Assembly (NCBI GenBank): GCA_021774775.1
Contig: JAJFIT010000004.1
Coordinates: forward strand, 1-64,000
DNA: 64,000 bases
Source of the DNA: Alphaproteobacteria bacterium
GTDB lineage: Bacteria; Pseudomonadota; Alphaproteobacteria; Sphingomonadales; Kordiimonadaceae
Direction: 5' to 3'
The notes under the pieces were generated by a model. It made no database searches and had not been told where the DNA came from. It was given only the letters and a program-made list of their open reading frames with translations. Shown here in pieces: positions 27,715-56,373 of this stretch. Every line of letters starts with the position of its first letter. Position 1 is the first letter of the stretch. Both the position numbers and the translations under genes were made by a program.

Positions 27715-30033
27715 TTAACTAACCTTGGCTGCTGCCTTGCGTTTTCTTCTTTCGCGCCTAGCCATGAAGACCAACCCGGGTGCAAGTAACCAAAGCCCAT
27801 AGGGCTCAGGAACAGAGACCAAACGTATTATGGCAGTGTCCACGCTGGTCAAAACAAAGTCGCCCGGCAAGAACAAACTGCCTCCGGTAAGCAGGTTGAT
27901 GGATTGGTCATTTCCGATATTGCCATCATACCGGACCCGTAGTGTGACCTGATAGTTGCCGGTTGTGTCAAATGCTGTTCCGTCACCAGAATTTAGCAAT
28001 AATGTTTGGCCGGTCCCCAATATCTGGCCGCCAAGAACCCAGGTTAAACTAAAGGCGCCAGTGTCAACAAGGTTACAGAATGCCTCATCTTCAAAGCTGG
28101 AACCGCAGCCATCGAGTGTAAAGGACTCGCCCAAGGGAATGGCATCATAAACGCCGGCCTCCGCGAGCAAAACAGGCTGGGGTTCCGGTTCGGGCTTTGG
28201 CGGCTCCACGGGTGGTTCTTCAACAGGTGGCTCCTCTACAGGTGGTTCCTCAACGGGTGGCTCCTCAACGGGTGGCTCCTCAACGGGCGGTTCCTCTACA
28301 GGCGGCTCCTCTACAGGTGGTTCTGGATCAGGAGTGGTCTCCGGGGCAGCTCCCAGTGTGTCCGGCGTATTGTCTACCGGTGCAGCCGCAGCCTCGGGCT
28401 CATTCGAAACCGGCTCAGGGGCGGGTTCTGGTTCAGGGTCGGGATCAGGCTCTGGTTCGGGCTCTGGTTCCGGCTCTGGTTCCGGCTCTGGTTCAGGTTC
28501 GGCCGTCGGTGTAATAGCCAAGGCCTCTTCCGTGGGCGTGCCATTTCCGCCGTCAGCGAAGGCCGTGACGGGATCGATGATAGGCACATCCAAACCAAGA
28601 ATTTCTTCAGCGGTTTGTTGAGCTGCAGCAGGTGCGACTCGCTCAATAAACTCTGCTACTTCCTCGGCGAGCTGTTGCTCGATATCGTTGTCAGGTTCCG
28701 GGTAAATAATAACAGCCGTCACGTAAGTGTCTTGGCCGCCAAGCTGCCGGAAGTTGATCCGCAGCGTGCCGTCAGTAACTTCGGCCCGGGTAACCAGCAT
28801 GTGACCTGTAGACGGCCCGCCGCCTCCGCCCGTCGCCTGAGCAAAGGGGCTGGTATCAGCAATCATGCCGACGGAATTTTGTGTTGTCATGCCGGCATAT
28901 GCACCTGGTGTAACAGCAGCGTCGATGCCAGACATGGAATGCATAACCGGTAAAAGCTCAGTCGAAGCGCTGGCGGCAAGACTATAAATAGTATCCTGCG
29001 CGTTAGATGACACCTTATCATCGCCTTCGCCGCTTGATCCGGACAATCTTCCAACGCCTTCGGTTGCCAGTTTCATAACCGGAACCAGGTCGTCAGTGGC
29101 TCTGGCGTCAACCATATTTACCTTGGCACCATTACGTTTGAGGTCAACACCGAACGGATAGAGTGGAGATTGCCCATTCGGACGGGGGGCCGTCAGGATC
29201 ACGACGCGGTATTTGCCGTTCTTAAGCCCGTTGGCAACGAATTGTTCAATATTTCGGACGCCTTTAGACAAAATGGAAGGGCCCGCGGTTGCCGCTTCGC
29301 TGTCCATCTGGCTGCCTTGAAGCATTTCACTGTTCGCTGACACCCGAATGAAGTCTTCGTATGGCTTGTCAGTTTCTGGGCCAAGGTCCCAACCAGTTGC
29401 ACCTTCCTGTAGTTCAAAGCCTTCGTCCAATACAAACGGAGCCATGAACGCGGTCCAGTGAGTTCTGGCGCCGGCCTCAATAATCAAATTTGCTGCATCA
29501 GATATTGTTGCTAAATCATAGTCACCAGCAACATCTTCAATTCTATTAAGAAGGGCATCCATGCGTTCTTTCAGATTTTCTGAATCGCCCATAGCCTGGT
29601 TCAAGTAAGATTGAACCACCTGGAAACCCCATTCGTCTACTGCAAGGGCACCTTCAACTGCTTCATCCAGCGTTACAGTCGGGAATGTCTCAATACGGGC
29701 TTCTACCGGCGTGCGTATCAATTCTGCACTGCGCGTCCCGGTGAGATAAAAATCTGCATCTGCGCTATCGTCGGCTCCAGCGGTTGACGCCAGACTTGGC
29801 CGCGCGATTTTAAGGCGGCGGATACCTGGAATTTCCACAGGGGGAGGGGTACGCATGCGATATGTCGCAGGCGGCGGCAGCAAACCTCGGCTCAAAACTG
29901 GCGGGATAGTATCATCTAAAACGATAAGATCCGGGGTCTGATTGGAGTAGGTGCCATATAACAAGGTACCGGTAGCAACAGCTGTGCCGGTCAACAGGGT
30001 TGAAATTATCAATGTCTTGTTGCTAGAAGCCAT
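27715..30033 (-). CDS. PEP-CTERM sorting domain protein with Pro/Glu repeat stalk
   Basis: C-terminus VPEPYGLWLLAPGLVFMARRERRKRKAAAKVS (PEP, TM, Arg-rich tail); (EP)n and (PPVEE)n repeats; start MASSNKTLII at 30033. Confidence 0.85.
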   Translation of the reverse strand: MASSNKTLIISTLLTGTAVATGTLLYGTYSNQTPDLIVLDDTIPPVLSRGLLPPPATYRMRTPPPVEIPGIRRLKIARPSLASTAGADDSADADFYLTGTRSAELIRTPVEARIETFPTVTLDEAVEGALAVDEWGFQVVQSYLNQAMGDSENLKERMDALLNRIEDVAGDYDLATISDAANLIIEAGARTHWTAFMAPFVLDEGFELQEGATGWDLGPETDKPYEDFIRVSANSEMLQGSQMDSEAATAGPSILSKGVRNIEQFVANGLKNGKYRVVILTAPRPNGQSPLYPFGVDLKRNGAKVNMVDARATDDLVPVMKLATEGVGRLSGSSGEGDDKVSSNAQDTIYSLAASASTELLPVMHSMSGIDAAVTPGAYAGMTTQNSVGMIADTSPFAQATGGGGGPSTGHMLVTRAEVTDGTLRINFRQLGGQDTYVTAVIIYPEPDNDIEQQLAEEVAEFIERVAPAAAQQTAEEILGLDVPIIDPVTAFADGGNGTPTEEALAITPTAEPEPEPEPEPEPEPEPEPDPDPEPEPAPEPVSNEPEAAAAPVDNTPDTLGAAPETTPDPEPPVEEPPVEEPPVEEPPVEEPPVEEPPVEEPPVEEPPVEPPKPEPEPQPVLLAEAGVYDAIPLGESFTLDGCGSSFEDEAFCNLVDTGAFSLTWVLGGQILGTGQTLLLNSGDGTAFDTTGNYQVTLRVRYDGNIGNDQSINLLTGGSLFLPGDFVLTSVDTAIIRLVSVPEPYGLWLLAPGLVFMARRERRKRKAAAKVS
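28211..28324. repeat. In-frame 15-bp coding repeat (about 7.6 copies) encoding PPVEE
   Basis: ggtggctcctcaacg-type units at 28211, 28226, 28241, 28256, 28271, 28286, 28301, partial 28316. Confidence 0.92.
28419..28500. repeat. 6-bp coding repeat encoding (EP)n
   Basis: ggctctggttcggg-type hexamers; protein EPEPEPEPEPEPEPDPDPEPEPAPEP. Confidence 0.85.
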
Positions 30034-30271
30034 GACGTTTTGAGGCCTTACCTGCTTAAAACACAAAAAATACACCCACAAGCATCATCGAAAAACTGGA
30101 GTGTTCACCCTCGACCCATCTGCAAAACCATAACACAGGAACGTAGGGTTTCAGCCAATAATTTGTAATAATTTGTATTAGGTTGTCGTTTCAATTGTAT
30201 TGTCTGGCAACAATCCAATATTACGGGTCAGTCATCAAACCTCAGTATAATGTAGTTAGGATCTTAAAATA

Positions 30272-49040: not shown

Positions 49041-50926
49041 CCGGTTGGATGACGCGCGACGGCAGTCCTGTTGAAGAGCGTCTGTTCAAACATATGACGG
49101 ACAAGATTAATCACCGCGGGCCTGACGGCGAGGGCTATTTCATCGGTCGTGACGTCGCCCTTGGTCATAAACGACTGTCAATTATTGATATCGCTGGCGG
49201 TCACCAACCCATGTATAGTCAGGGCCGGGAAGTTGTACTGTCCTACAATGGCGAAATATATAATTTTCAGTCACTGCGGCGCGAACTTGAAGGTCTAGGG
49301 CATCGTTTTATCACTCAATCCGACACTGAGGTTCTTCTCAACAGCTATATGCAATGGGGTGAGGCCTGTGTTGAGCGGTTGCGTGGCATGTTCGCTTTCG
49401 CCGTGTGGGACGGTCCTAAACAAAAGCTTTTTCTTGCGCGCGACCGGCTCGGCATCAAGCCTTTATATTATAGTTTTCTGCCCGACGGTGATTTTGTCTT
49501 CGCATCTGAAATGAAGGCATTGCTTGCGCATCCAAAAATCTTTCGAAAATTGCGAGTTGATGCTCTTGAGGATTATTTGATGCTTGGTTACGTGCCTGAT
49601 CCCAAGTCAATTGTTGAAGGCATAATGAAACTGGAGGCAGCAAACAGCCTGTCACTGGAAAAAGGGTCGACACAAGCGCGGGTCAACTGCTACTGGCAGC
49701 CCGGCGTCGGTAAAACAGGTGTGTCGGTTTCGCGGTCAGAAGACCTGGTGGCGCGCCTTGAAGATGCGGTGAAAATGCGCATGATTGCGGACGTCCCACT
49801 GGGCGCTTTTTTGTCGGGGGGGGTCGATTCAAGTGCTGTCGTCGGTCTTATGTCAAAGCTGGGAACCGAACCGGTTGAGACATGTGCCATAGGATCGGAA
49901 GATCCAAACTATGACGAAAGTGGTTATGCACAAATTGTTGCCGACAAGTTTGAAACAAACCATCGATGGCGTTTGGTATCAGCCAACGATCGATCATTAA
50001 TTGATAAGATGGTGGACATTTATGACGAACCTTTCGCAGACCCATCGGCTTTGCCAACCTACCGGGTGTGCGGTTTGGCCCGCGAGAAAGTAAAGGTTGC
50101 TCTGTCTGGCGATGGGGGTGATGAACTGTTTGCTGGTTACAGGCGGCACAGGTTTCATATGGCTGAAGAATCGCTTCGTGGCACGCTGCCCATGTTTGCC
50201 AGACGCGCATTATTTGGTCCCTTGGCCAAATTATATCCGAAACTGGATCGCGCGCCGCAGTTTTTGAGGGCGAAATCCACATTTGAAGCCCTGTCGCGAA
50301 CCTCTGCGCAAGCCTATTGTCAAAGCGTTAGTCGCACGCCCGACCGTGACAGAAAACGGTGGCATTCCAGACGCATGAGAAAAATGCTTGCTGGGTACCA
50401 CCCTCACGACCGCTTTAGTGAGCTAGCTAGCGAGGTCAAGGGTGCCGACCCGCTCTCCGTTATTCAATATATCGATATGAAAACTTATTTATCAGGGGAT
50501 ATTCTAACAAAAGTTGATCGGGCAAGTATGGCGCACAGCCTTGAGGTGCGTGTTCCAATATTGGATCATAAGTTTGTGGAATGGGGGCTGCGCGTACCAC
50601 CCCAGGAACGCATTGTCGACGGCGAAGGCAAAGCAGTTTTCAAAGCTGCATTGCGTGGTTTTTTACCCGACAACATATTATATCGACCCAAAAAGGGTTT
50701 CGATGTTCCCACCATAAGTTGGCTGCGCAACGAATTGGCAGATGAAACCATGTCACTGGGTGAAAGCGAATTGTTCGCGGACAGTGGACTTTTCAACATG
50801 CAAGGTATCCAGCAGATGGCTGAGGAGCATGTCCTGGGATCCCGTGATCATCATACCAGCCTGTGGGCGCTCATTATACTTGAGCGTAGCCTTAAAAAAC
50901 TGAATTTGGAAATGCCAACCAGTTAA
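49028..50926 (+). CDS. XrtA/PEP-CTERM system amidotransferase (asparagine synthetase-like)
   Basis: MCGITGWM Cys2 glutaminase; GAFLSGGVDSSAVVGLMS PP-loop. Confidence 0.94.
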   Translation: MCGITGWMTRDGSPVEERLFKHMTDKINHRGPDGEGYFIGRDVALGHKRLSIIDIAGGHQPMYSQGREVVLSYNGEIYNFQSLRRELEGLGHRFITQSDTEVLLNSYMQWGEACVERLRGMFAFAVWDGPKQKLFLARDRLGIKPLYYSFLPDGDFVFASEMKALLAHPKIFRKLRVDALEDYLMLGYVPDPKSIVEGIMKLEAANSLSLEKGSTQARVNCYWQPGVGKTGVSVSRSEDLVARLEDAVKMRMIADVPLGAFLSGGVDSSAVVGLMSKLGTEPVETCAIGSEDPNYDESGYAQIVADKFETNHRWRLVSANDRSLIDKMVDIYDEPFADPSALPTYRVCGLAREKVKVALSGDGGDELFAGYRRHRFHMAEESLRGTLPMFARRALFGPLAKLYPKLDRAPQFLRAKSTFEALSRTSAQAYCQSVSRTPDRDRKRWHSRRMRKMLAGYHPHDRFSELASEVKGADPLSVIQYIDMKTYLSGDILTKVDRASMAHSLEVRVPILDHKFVEWGLRVPPQERIVDGEGKAVFKAALRGFLPDNILYRPKKGFDVPTISWLRNELADETMSLGESELFADSGLFNMQGIQQMAEEHVLGSRDHHTSLWALIILERSLKKLNLEMPTS

Positions 50927-53063: not shown

Positions 53064-53145
53064 AATACGAAATGGTTACCGCCAAGGGTTAAGGGAACTA
53101 GCTGCAGTATGTACGTGCAGTAAAAAACAGCAACATTACATTTAC

Positions 53146-54057
53146 ATGACGGTCTTTTGTTGCTTGTTATCAAATTTTATTAGGCAAAATGTAACAAAAT
53201 GGCGTAATAATAGGTTGTTGGTTGGGGTTTGGCCTGCGAAAATGCAGCCCGAATATAGTTTTGTGACCATTTACAATGGATTTGTTGTGACCGAAAAACC
53301 AATAGTACCTGATACTTCTGAGAGTGACTCTGAAACCTCCGAAAACGACAGAATTGCGGAACGTCGGCAATTGTTGATGTTGGGGGCCGCTGGTCTTCCC
53401 ATGATGCTTACATTGAAAGCATCGGCGCAGGAGGTGCTTGTCTCACAATTAACCTGCGCTATTAAACTGCCAAAGCGGTTGCGAATTTTGGTGGATTGTG
53501 ACGGGCGTGCCTGGGTAGGCACTAAGAATATCAAATATACAAATGGTAAAGGCTTTAAGGTCGCTGACATTGTTAAATTTAAAGACGATGCGACCTACGC
53601 ATTCCCTGCTGGCGATGTGCCAAATTACTGGTTGCCTGACAATTGCCCGATTGAAGAATGCAGTAATGGTGGCGGCGGCGATGATGATGATGACGGTTTT
53701 GATTATGAAACAGCATCGGCAGAATTGGATGACCTGATGCGCACATCTTTGCCGTCGCAGGCAGATGGTATTGTGTTGGCCTCGGCACGTATGGGGGACG
53801 GGGACGATGACGATGACGAAGACGACTGCGATGAGGATTGGATTGATTCAGGGTATGCTTTCTACGAGTTGAGTAAAAACTCAACTATCCTGCCTGTTGA
53901 CCATACCAGTGGTACCGGATGGAGCCCGCAGGCCAACACGCAAGGTTTGTTTATTGCGCTGTCTCTGGTATACGAAAGCAGGCACGGCGATGCTCCGGGC
54001 TGGCCAGGAATTTCCTGTATTGTTTCCATAATAAGTTATTTCGGCACCCAAAATTAA
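53146..54057 (+). CDS. Asp-rich, secreted-looking hypothetical protein upstream of HPr-rel-A cassette
   Basis: Twin-Arg-type segment ERRQLLMLGAAGLPMMLTLKASAQ; GGGGDDDDDGFDYE and GDGDDDDDEDDCDEDW. True start could be 53242 (ATG) or 53287 (GTG). Confidence 0.6.
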   Translation: MTVFCCLLSNFIRQNVTKWRNNRLLVGVWPAKMQPEYSFVTIYNGFVVTEKPIVPDTSESDSETSENDRIAERRQLLMLGAAGLPMMLTLKASAQEVLVSQLTCAIKLPKRLRILVDCDGRAWVGTKNIKYTNGKGFKVADIVKFKDDATYAFPAGDVPNYWLPDNCPIEECSNGGGGDDDDDGFDYETASAELDDLMRTSLPSQADGIVLASARMGDGDDDDDEDDCDEDWIDSGYAFYELSKNSTILPVDHTSGTGWSPQANTQGLFIALSLVYESRHGDAPGWPGISCIVSIISYFGTQN

Positions 54058-54089
54058 CGTAAAGCCCCTTTTGTCGGCGAAGTTCTGAT

Positions 54090-54398
54090 ATGGCTGCAGT
54101 CCCGCCTACCACTGGCAAAAAATGGTCATCTGATTCTCGCCAATATTTGGCTATAGAGTATGATGACACTTTTTTGGTATATTTCCGCCCGTCGGGAGAA
54201 ACTCACTTTTTGAATTTCCTTTCTTACGGAATGGTTGACGCCGTGTCGTCTATGCCTTTGTCTGAGGAAGAAATATTGGCCCGGATGAGGACAGACTTTT
54301 CCCTGACTGCAGAAGAGTTACCTGAAGCGCTTGTTGCTACAACTCTAAGCGAGCTGGATCAGGCAGGCTTGATCTCCGCCTTGGGTGCGGGAGCATGA
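54090..54398 (+). CDS. PqqD-like protein of HPr-rel-A system
   Basis: Approx. 100 aa: VYFRPSGETHFLNFLSYGMVDAVSSMPLSEEEILARM...LDQAGLI, PqqD-like layout; overlaps the kinase start. Confidence 0.8.
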   Translation: MAAVPPTTGKKWSSDSRQYLAIEYDDTFLVYFRPSGETHFLNFLSYGMVDAVSSMPLSEEEILARMRTDFSLTAEELPEALVATTLSELDQAGLISALGAGA

Positions 54399-55327
54399 GC
54401 GCGCTTTCCTGTGTGGCCAGTTATCAACGACGTGATTTGCGCGCAGCGCTGCGCAACGGTTCGTTCACGCTGCACTTGGGGCCGTTTAGCCATCTTATAT
54501 CAGGGGCGAGCGAACCTTTGCTTGATTACCTGACTGATACCTACCGTGATTACCCCGTAGAGCTATCCCCCAGCGATGTGACAGATGTTCTGCTTCGCCT
54601 GGAGGCTCCAAATGTTTTACGCCGCTTTGTCCGGCGGCAAATAACACCCAATCCGGGTTTTAAGATTCCCGCGGTGCCATTGCCGTTAAGTATGGCGCCT
54701 CTGGCATTTGAGATGGGACTTAACCTCTCTGTTGCGCTTAAATGCTGCCGATTTATCAACGTGCACGCAGGCGTGGTTGCAGATGAGACCGGGGCAATTG
54801 TCATGAGTGCTGCTTCCGGTGCTGGCAAAAGCACTTTGACGGCGGCGTTGTTGCAGCACGGATACCGTCTGTTCTCCGATGAATTTGCCCTAATCGGACT
54901 GGACCAGCCGCTGTTGCACCCCTATCCACGGGCCATATCGCTGAAACAGGAAACCATTCCCGTGGTTCGGGATATGGTTGGCGACAACTGGATTAGTAAA
55001 ACAGTGACAGGAACCCCGAAGGGCGACATCGCCTATTATCGGGCAAGGGCTAGTGACGTGGCGCAGGACAAAATACCCACAAAAGCCAAACTGGTCTTGT
55101 TTCCCAATTTTGAAAAAGGCGCCCGGCCTGTTGCGCGTCAGTTAAACCCGGCGGAAGCAATCATGCGTCTTGTCCCAGCATCAACCAACTATTCCCTGCT
55201 TGGTGAGCCAGCCTTCCATGCGGTCACCGGGATGTTGAAAAACATACGTGCTTACGAGATTACCTATGGATCGACAATGGATAGTTTGCGCCTTGTTGAA
55301 CAAATAACCGATCAGAAGTTAGTCTGA
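54395..55327 (+). CDS. HprK-related kinase A
   Basis: INVHAGVVADETGAIVMSAASGAGKSTLTAALLQHGYRLFSDEFALI: HprK-type P-loop. Confidence 0.88.
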   Translation: MSALSCVASYQRRDLRAALRNGSFTLHLGPFSHLISGASEPLLDYLTDTYRDYPVELSPSDVTDVLLRLEAPNVLRRFVRRQITPNPGFKIPAVPLPLSMAPLAFEMGLNLSVALKCCRFINVHAGVVADETGAIVMSAASGAGKSTLTAALLQHGYRLFSDEFALIGLDQPLLHPYPRAISLKQETIPVVRDMVGDNWISKTVTGTPKGDIAYYRARASDVAQDKIPTKAKLVLFPNFEKGARPVARQLNPAEAIMRLVPASTNYSLLGEPAFHAVTGMLKNIRAYEITYGSTMDSLRLVEQITDQKLV

Positions 55328-56373
55328 TGCAAAAGTCCGCTCTCAAACAGATAGTTGGGATTGCTCCTTTGCCCGAAAAAGTGATGGACCGCATTGACCT
55401 TGTTCGGTATGCCGACGCAAATCACATTCTTGGTCAAATGGCATCGGTTGACACCGCTGGTGTGAGCGATCGATTGAACGATATATTCAGGAATGCGCTG
55501 CTGCGGGCAGGGCATGACCACACCATGTTGCAGTTTGAGATGAACCGGCTGGAGCATGCGCTTTCAGGAACCGGCATAGAGCCTGTTGTATTAAAGGGCG
55601 GTGCATATGTAGCACAGGGAAAAAGGGCGGCAGGCGGCAGGCGGGTCAGCGACCTGGATATTCTGGTAACGGAAGGCGAATTAGACGAAGTGGAGGCCCG
55701 GCTGAAACAGGCCGGCTGGTCGCCTGACGAAGCAACGGACAACGAATATGACCAAGCCTATTACCGAGAGCATATGCACGAGCTGCCACCGCTGCGCCAT
55801 GCCAAAAGAGGCACGATTATCGACGTACACCACCGCCTCCTGCCCAAAACAGCGAGATCCAACGTTGATGTCGCTTTGATGCAGCAATCAGCAACGCGCG
55901 TTGCAGGAACCCTGGTGAAAACATTTGACGATGTGGATATGTTCATCCACTCAGCGGTGCATGCTTTCGCCGACGGGGCTATAGACACGCCGGCGCGCAG
56001 TTTGGTGGAGCTGTATATGCTTTACTCTGAACTGTCATTCAACGATACCTCACGCCTTCAAATCCGTGCAAAGGCCGTTGGCGCGTCAAAACCTGTATCC
56101 ACGGCGTTATGGGCCATCGACGAATTTTTCAGTGCGGACGGTGCTCCTGCTCTGTTGAATAAAACGCTAACAGAAAAGCCGCACTTCATCCTGCGATGGG
56201 CCATTACGTCCAAGACATTTGAGCGGCGGTTGGCACCGCTGGCGAAGGCACTTCTTTATATCCGCAGTCACTATTTGAGGATGCCACTGCGCCTGCTTGT
56301 GCCGCACTTGGCGCGTAAAGCCATCGCCTGGCGGCCAAGCGTACAAAAACCTGTCGAGCTACCCTTTCCCTAA
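55327..56373 (+). CDS. Nucleotidyltransferase family protein (PF14907-like)
   Basis: VVLKGGAYVAQGKRAAGGRRVSDLDILV; IIDVHHRLLP; DVDMFIHSAVHAF. Confidence 0.85.
   Translation: MQKSALKQIVGIAPLPEKVMDRIDLVRYADANHILGQMASVDTAGVSDRLNDIFRNALLRAGHDHTMLQFEMNRLEHALSGTGIEPVVLKGGAYVAQGKRAAGGRRVSDLDILVTEGELDEVEARLKQAGWSPDEATDNEYDQAYYREHMHELPPLRHAKRGTIIDVHHRLLPKTARSNVDVALMQQSATRVAGTLVKTFDDVDMFIHSAVHAFADGAIDTPARSLVELYMLYSELSFNDTSRLQIRAKAVGASKPVSTALWAIDEFFSADGAPALLNKTLTEKPHFILRWAITSKTFERRLAPLAKALLYIRSHYLRMPLRLLVPHLARKAIAWRPSVQKPVELPFP

Follow-up and report, generated by a model that had tools for sequence, protein, structure and literature searches.

What does the HPr-rel-A cassette act on? HPr-rel-A is a named, conserved cassette for which neither a substrate nor a function was found in the literature or in family databases, and a literature search (subscription journals lay mostly outside it) returned no paper on HPr-rel-A, which is weak evidence of novelty. 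We addressed this question with the copy carried by the window, the 64,000-nucleotide stretch of Kordiimonadaceae DNA analysed here, where four genes lie on the forward strand (Table 1). A sequence-only reading had described four open reading frames at this place, had assigned the last three, which overlap, to the HPr-rel-A trio and had proposed the protein encoded before them as the partner of the trio. All four frames were present, with the kinase gene starting at 54395, before the PqqD-like gene ends at 54398, and position 55327 common to the kinase and nucleotidyltransferase genes; the trio assignment held as well, the first two products scoring over the TIGR04353 and TIGR04352 cut-offs and the third belonging to PF14907. 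The start given for the upstream protein, ATG 53146, had to be moved. Conservation instead begins at GTG 53287, with VTEKP at the GTG and VTERP or VTEQP in L005, L007 and L008, and sequence comparison makes this GTG the probable true start. On present evidence we lean toward regarding the four genes as a precursor-plus-modification operon.

Table 1. Features of the window locus, with coordinates in the window
Feature	Coordinates	Strand	Remarks
Precursor / candidate substrate gene	53287..54057	+	256 aa, GTG start; homologues, synteny, model
Leader RRQLLMLGAAGLPMMLTLKASA	53362..53427	+	Tat-type n/h/c regions; KASA before presumed cleavage site
Cys57 in S-x(3)-C near mature N-terminus	53455..53457	+	Invariant in alignment A6
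Variable Asp/Gly-rich linker	53662..53838	+	Missing from stand-alone paralogues L026-L031; low pLDDT
C-terminal S-C-I-V-S-I, with Ser247 as candidate phospho-acceptor (inference)	54013..54030	+	Class-1 motif conservation
PqqD_rel_X, RRE-type predicted leader-binding protein	54090..54398	+	102 aa; TIGR04353, 49.7 bits vs NCBIfam cut-off 35; AF2 fold
HprK_rel_A, HPr-kinase-like P-loop kinase	54395..55327	+	310 aa; TIGR04352, 231.5 bits vs NCBIfam cut-off 200
Predicted catalytic segment: His124, P-loop GAGKST (Lys145), Asp162-Glu163	54764..54883	+	Alignment A3
PF14907 (NTP_transf_5) nucleotidyltransferase	55327..56373	+	348 aa; 132.4 bits vs gathering score 31.2
Nucleotidyltransferase motif LKGGAY...GRRVSDLDIL	55591..55665	+	Conserved in homologues

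The precursor matched no Pfam or NCBIfam family. It is laid out as an RR leader, a small alpha/beta core, an Asp-rich linker and a C-terminal SCIVS motif, and window-type precursors keep the RR leader, the Cys at residue 57 and a C-terminal SCxxS (alignment A6); S-x(3)-C is invariant in sphingomonad precursors too (alignment A4). The earlier description of a secreted, Asp-rich protein was apt as far as it went, but the Asp-rich stretch proved to be a linker that varies and that paralogues lack. In the AF2 model, two segments were predicted with confidence, the linker was unfolded and SCIVS lay on a C-terminal helix; predicted fold confidence was high for the core, and a Foldseek comparison of the model with the PDB found no relative (best E 1.7). 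Several genomes hold a stand-alone second precursor copy of ~200 aa without the Asp-rich linker; one of these (G000:C54:12340-12894, also L100:7338-7940) has no adjoining cassette and is flanked by a sigma-factor gene and by a 590-aa ORF that matches nothing in Pfam.

Homologues of the upstream protein were detected by blast in 23 of 41 related genomes, namely in all 20 of the genus and in 3 of the family, and at blast sensitivity none of the 41 yielded one outside the family. The best copy per genome lay directly upstream of pqqD in the fetched loci (in L023 the contig ends first). Loci were then read for the 61 genomes, among 399 sampled evenly but not exhaustively from the phylum, in which HprK_rel_A exceeded its cut-off, together with 80 named loci that included Sphingomonas, Sphingobium, Sphingopyxis, Massilia, Duganella, Thiobacillus, Methylicorpusculum and Psychrosphaera; there the gene before pqqD encoded an RR-leader protein even where its body could not be aligned to the window protein. 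Related precursors accompanied HprK_rel_A at 127 of 138 loci from Alpha-, Beta- and Gammaproteobacteria, nearly always just upstream of pqqD, a count that is partly circular for L062-L181 because the precursor profiles were trained there on the same genes that they count. No precursor match was present nearby at 11 of the 138. Profile matches lay on the cassette strand and upstream of the cassette, except for two downstream genes in L181, and the precursor ORF of L105, whose frame extends into HprK, was for this reason counted as lying elsewhere.

Three lines of evidence are independent of profile training: an order-wide set, unlinked cases and a leader-only search, which is described below with the leader. 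Across the order, where strong matches to the sphingomonad-type precursor profile were counted, 201 genomes divided into 31 with both precursor and cassette, 0 with the precursor only, 60 with the cassette only and 110 with neither (Fisher 7e-13). The association is also independent of the operon, since five HprK_rel_A-bearing genomes of genus g23 encode the precursor 160-690 kb from the cassette or on a different contig. Nineteen further regions from the order, which had not been used in choosing the motif, had the same layout, and 11 of 13 matches to the profile of a second precursor class (class 2) in the phylum sample adjoined HprK_rel_A, the other two being body only, without the leader. 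Comparative genomics shows the pairing of cassette and precursor, and the co-occurrence that the sequence-only reading had asked for was borne out: its candidate partner stands upstream of the cassette across genus and family and has analogues across the phylum. That the precursor is the substrate of the cassette is, in our judgement, very likely.

Locus layout varied in several respects. Two precursor genes per cassette occur in L016, L024, L172, L181, L217 and L227. Sphingopyxis-type cassettes in L092, L112, L120, L125 and L232 are preceded by other genes, not by a precursor; several cassettes of this type follow a TonB-receptor-like ORF, and five such genomes carry the precursor elsewhere. 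A group-1 glycosyltransferase gene is intercalated between precursor and pqqD in four Sphingobium loci (L109, L113, L119, L123), which hints at glycosylation of the product.

The genes flanking the window cassette suggest another role for it, that of serving the XrtA/PEP-CTERM envelope system with the precursor gene as a co-regulated neighbour only. A full XrtA locus, whose last gene is the XrtA amidotransferase gene at 50926, ends 2.4 kb upstream, and XrtA was commoner in genomes with the cassette (25 of 61) than in the others (10 of 338). However, 36 cassette genomes had no XrtA over its cut-off, the cassette adjoins phoR rather than XrtA in most of the order, and precursors track the cassette even when unlinked. 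XrtA is associated with the cassette and is not required; a role confined to the XrtA system is highly improbable, and the XrtA-linked substrate named earlier as an alternative is not favoured. Elsewhere in the window, positions 27715-30081 of the reverse strand encode a 788-aa protein without a family match whose C-terminus (SVPEPYGLWLLAPGLVFMARRERRKRK) resembles a PEP-CTERM sorting signal. Divergent from the window cassette stands phoB-phoR. A Pho-box-like element at 53135-53152 (reverse complement CCGTCATGTAAATGTAAT) overlaps ATG 53146 and has similar counterparts in several relatives; because it faces phoR and fails to reach significance in most relatives, control of the cassette by a Pho box was rejected and the element was left out as evidence on the cassette.

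The leader proved to be the best-conserved part of each precursor family, with a mean pairwise identity over its 24 columns of 0.71 vs 0.39 in class 1a, 0.44 vs 0.32 in class 2 and 0.69 vs 0.63 in class 1b. Such conservation is unusual for an ordinary signal peptide. A leader-only profile (A7), built from a 38-residue leader region of Kordiimonadaceae that takes in the stretch listed in Table 1 and searched over the 41 whole genomes, gave matches below 1e-12 to precursors exclusively, and in other families of the order (six genomes: G026, G027, G033, G039, G030, G037) it picked out the gene that precedes the cassette. Those of the 41 that lack HprK_rel_A had no match, G019 set apart; this 78% complete assembly has a precursor match cut by a contig end, and HprK_rel_A was not found in it. 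Weak extra matches occurred in G010 and G004 and as second ones in G027 and G015.

The same N-terminus contains an RR motif, a hydrophobic stretch and AxA, and a TatC gene is present in the genome; from these sequence features, export of the precursor by Tat is likely. The leader may be recognised by Tat alone, and its textbook Tat signal, with a basic residue before AxA, would also suit a quality-control system in which the PqqD-like protein is a signal-peptide chaperone, the kinase and the nucleotidyltransferase control export or have another target, and the precursor stays unmodified. Yet the leader profile did not match the remaining Tat proteins of these genomes at comparable scores, the kinase and nucleotidyltransferase are a known lasso tailoring pair, and the PqqD fold resembles RiPP leader-binding proteins, so that we regard quality control as unlikely. 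The AF2 model of the PqqD-like protein (pLDDT 80.8) had winged-helix RRE topology, and the lasso B1-leader complexes 5v1v, 5v1u and 6jx3 were its top PDB matches, among which TruD and TigE also appeared (Foldseek probability 1.00); the RRE fold is thus shown by prediction, whereas a PDB search with the sequence returned nothing meaningful. The specificity of the leader profile lends indirect support to the predicted binding of the leader by this protein. Apparent PqqD-HprK fusions were rejected, the long HprK ORFs being start-codon over-extensions.

Beyond the leader, precursors fell into two classes. Class 1 precursors end in [ST]C-hydrophobic-x-S and comprise the window type (1a), a sphingomonad type of ~130 aa ending in TCFASLQMPRG (1b) and a type ending in SCWxSF (1c). 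The C-terminal motif, written as [STC]C-hydrophobic-x-S, was present in 87 of 89 class-1 precursors, and of the two exceptions one is truncated where its contig stops and the other carries the motif further in. Class 2 precursors, mostly from beta- and gammaproteobacteria and ~210 aa long, share the blocks SPGYWKNH and HxVAAxLNA and lack a C-terminal CxxS; C-x-S[GA]-x-S directly follows the leader in 45 of 58 instead, and a single acceptor motif for all precursors was therefore rejected. Two small ORFs of 70 and 90 aa (L101:7263-7475, L245:4123-4395), each with a hydrophobic stretch and either KR or RR, adjoin more distant pairs of HprK-like and nucleotidyltransferase genes and are possibly a second, shorter precursor type.

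The position of the class-1 motif at the C-terminal end, together with the report that the Ser modified by lasso kinases is C-terminal (PMC9266682), would also fit a small-peptide RiPP, in which cleavage would set the modified C-terminus free as a short product. This scheme is very doubtful, because the loci read contained no recurring protease or transporter gene in the operon, the precursor core folds with high predicted confidence and the Ser cluster of class 2 lies near the mature N-terminus. For modification of the whole precursor, the CxxS as phosphorylation site is a tentative assignment from motif conservation that we hold at somewhat below even; the motif could be structural rather than an acceptor site, since the AF2 model has Ser247 on a C-terminal helix predicted with fair confidence.

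HprK_rel_A had a single match in its own genome and none in control genomes (0/14), and its closest named relative came from an uncultured Kordiimonas (69% identity). A canonical HprK is encoded separately in the same genome and already provides a kinase for HPr. H124, K145, D162 and E163 were invariant in the HprK_rel_A alignment (A3). The D-E pair was found in 169 of 169 sequences, whereas related kinases outside the cassette have D-D, some of them adjoining Asn-synthase and sulfotransferase genes; the activity of HprK_rel_A may differ, because the HPr and lasso kinases that are active have D-D where it has D-E. The nucleotidyltransferase motif was recovered by pattern in 115 of 117 homologues and was visible in one more, with the DxD conserved; a PDB sequence search with this protein gave nothing meaningful. 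One genome (G222; L080:5944-8064, L054) encodes HprK_rel_A and the nucleotidyltransferase as a single 706-aa ORF.

These residues bear on which chemistry the cassette performs. The invariant D-E, the intact nucleotidyltransferase motif and the Cys of CxxS, which is as conserved as its Ser (alignments A4, A6), would be compatible with nucleotidylation by the PF14907 enzyme (AMP or similar) as the main step, or with Cys modification, the HprK-like protein being an ATP-driven helper. But HprK_rel_A retains the H, the P-loop Lys and the first Asp, and the pseudomycoidin nucleotidyltransferase acts on a phosphate placed by a kinase (PMC9266682); we give this alternative a small share of our belief. 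In lasso pathways, the linear precursor is phosphorylated on a C-terminal Ser by PadeK, ThcoK and SyanK, and PsmK phosphorylates before PsmN leads to a hexose on phospho-Ser (PMC9266682). Phosphorylation and/or nucleotidylation, as the sequence-only reading had it, fits the enzyme families and this lasso-peptide precedent.

The pathway that we propose would start with the secreted precursor (53287-54057), whose twin-arginine N-terminus would double as a recognition leader. The PqqD-like RRE would bind this leader and present the precursor to the HprK-like kinase. In the cytoplasm, while the precursor is unfolded or has just been synthesised, this kinase would phosphorylate one of its Ser residues, for which Ser247 of the C-terminal S-C-I-V-S-I is the best candidate. 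The nucleotidyltransferase may then extend the phosphate with a nucleotide or hexose, as PsmN is reported to do in a lasso pathway, and Tat export and removal of the leader would deliver a modified protein that acts in the envelope. By analogy, Ser phosphorylation of the precursor, which we rate likeliest as the first chemical step, stands at an even balance, and a further addition to the phosphate is rather doubtful. Still more tentative than phosphorylation itself is the broadest reading, a so far undescribed kind of modification spread through Pseudomonadota, in which an RRE-guided kinase and nucleotidyltransferase would decorate whole Tat proteins, rather than small peptides, with phosphate or phosphate-linked groups before export, with the Tat leader as recognition sequence. 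If true, RRE-guided chemistry is not confined to peptides but reaches whole proteins exported by Tat, and one N-terminus is both leader and export signal. HPr-rel-A now has identified precursor families with a common leader and with a candidate site that is almost invariant; with a likely substrate named across Pseudomonadota, its function becomes directly testable.

Among known systems, the window locus shares with HPr-rel-A all three defining genes, their order, their overlaps and scores over the cut-offs, whereas HPr-rel-A as catalogued has no substrate or function and the upstream precursor families stand outside Pfam and NCBIfam. SynChlorMet cassettes carry radical SAM genes. The window kinase has a weak likeness to ScmC of that system (TIGR04249, 12.4 bits vs a cut-off of 125), but no radical SAM genes adjoin the window cassette. 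With HprK the window kinase shares, by sequence, the P-loop kinase fold (1jb1, 2qmh), while an HPr kinase/phosphorylase assignment fails on Hpr_kinase_C (13.9 vs 33.3 bits) and on D-E in place of D-D. A lasso cluster is not indicated, the sole nearby Asn-synthase homologue being the XrtA amidotransferase (TIGR03108, 859 bits), which scored 260 on the lasso cyclase model against a cut-off of 525. In contrast to lasso clusters, no lasso cyclase was seen in the window operon, no protease gene was noticed among its immediate neighbours, the precursors of HPr-rel-A are Tat-type proteins of 120-280 aa, and the kinase has H-K-D-E instead of the H-K-D-D conserved in lasso kinases (PMC9266682). The lasso tailoring module B1-K-N likewise combines an RRE protein, an HprK-like kinase and a nucleotidyltransferase, B1 is the best fold match of the window PqqD-like protein, and in sphingomonads related kinases adjoin Asn-synthase-like genes. 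Because HPr-rel-A has the same three kinds of protein as this module, leader-guided modification of a Tat-exported protein is the best reading of the window locus.
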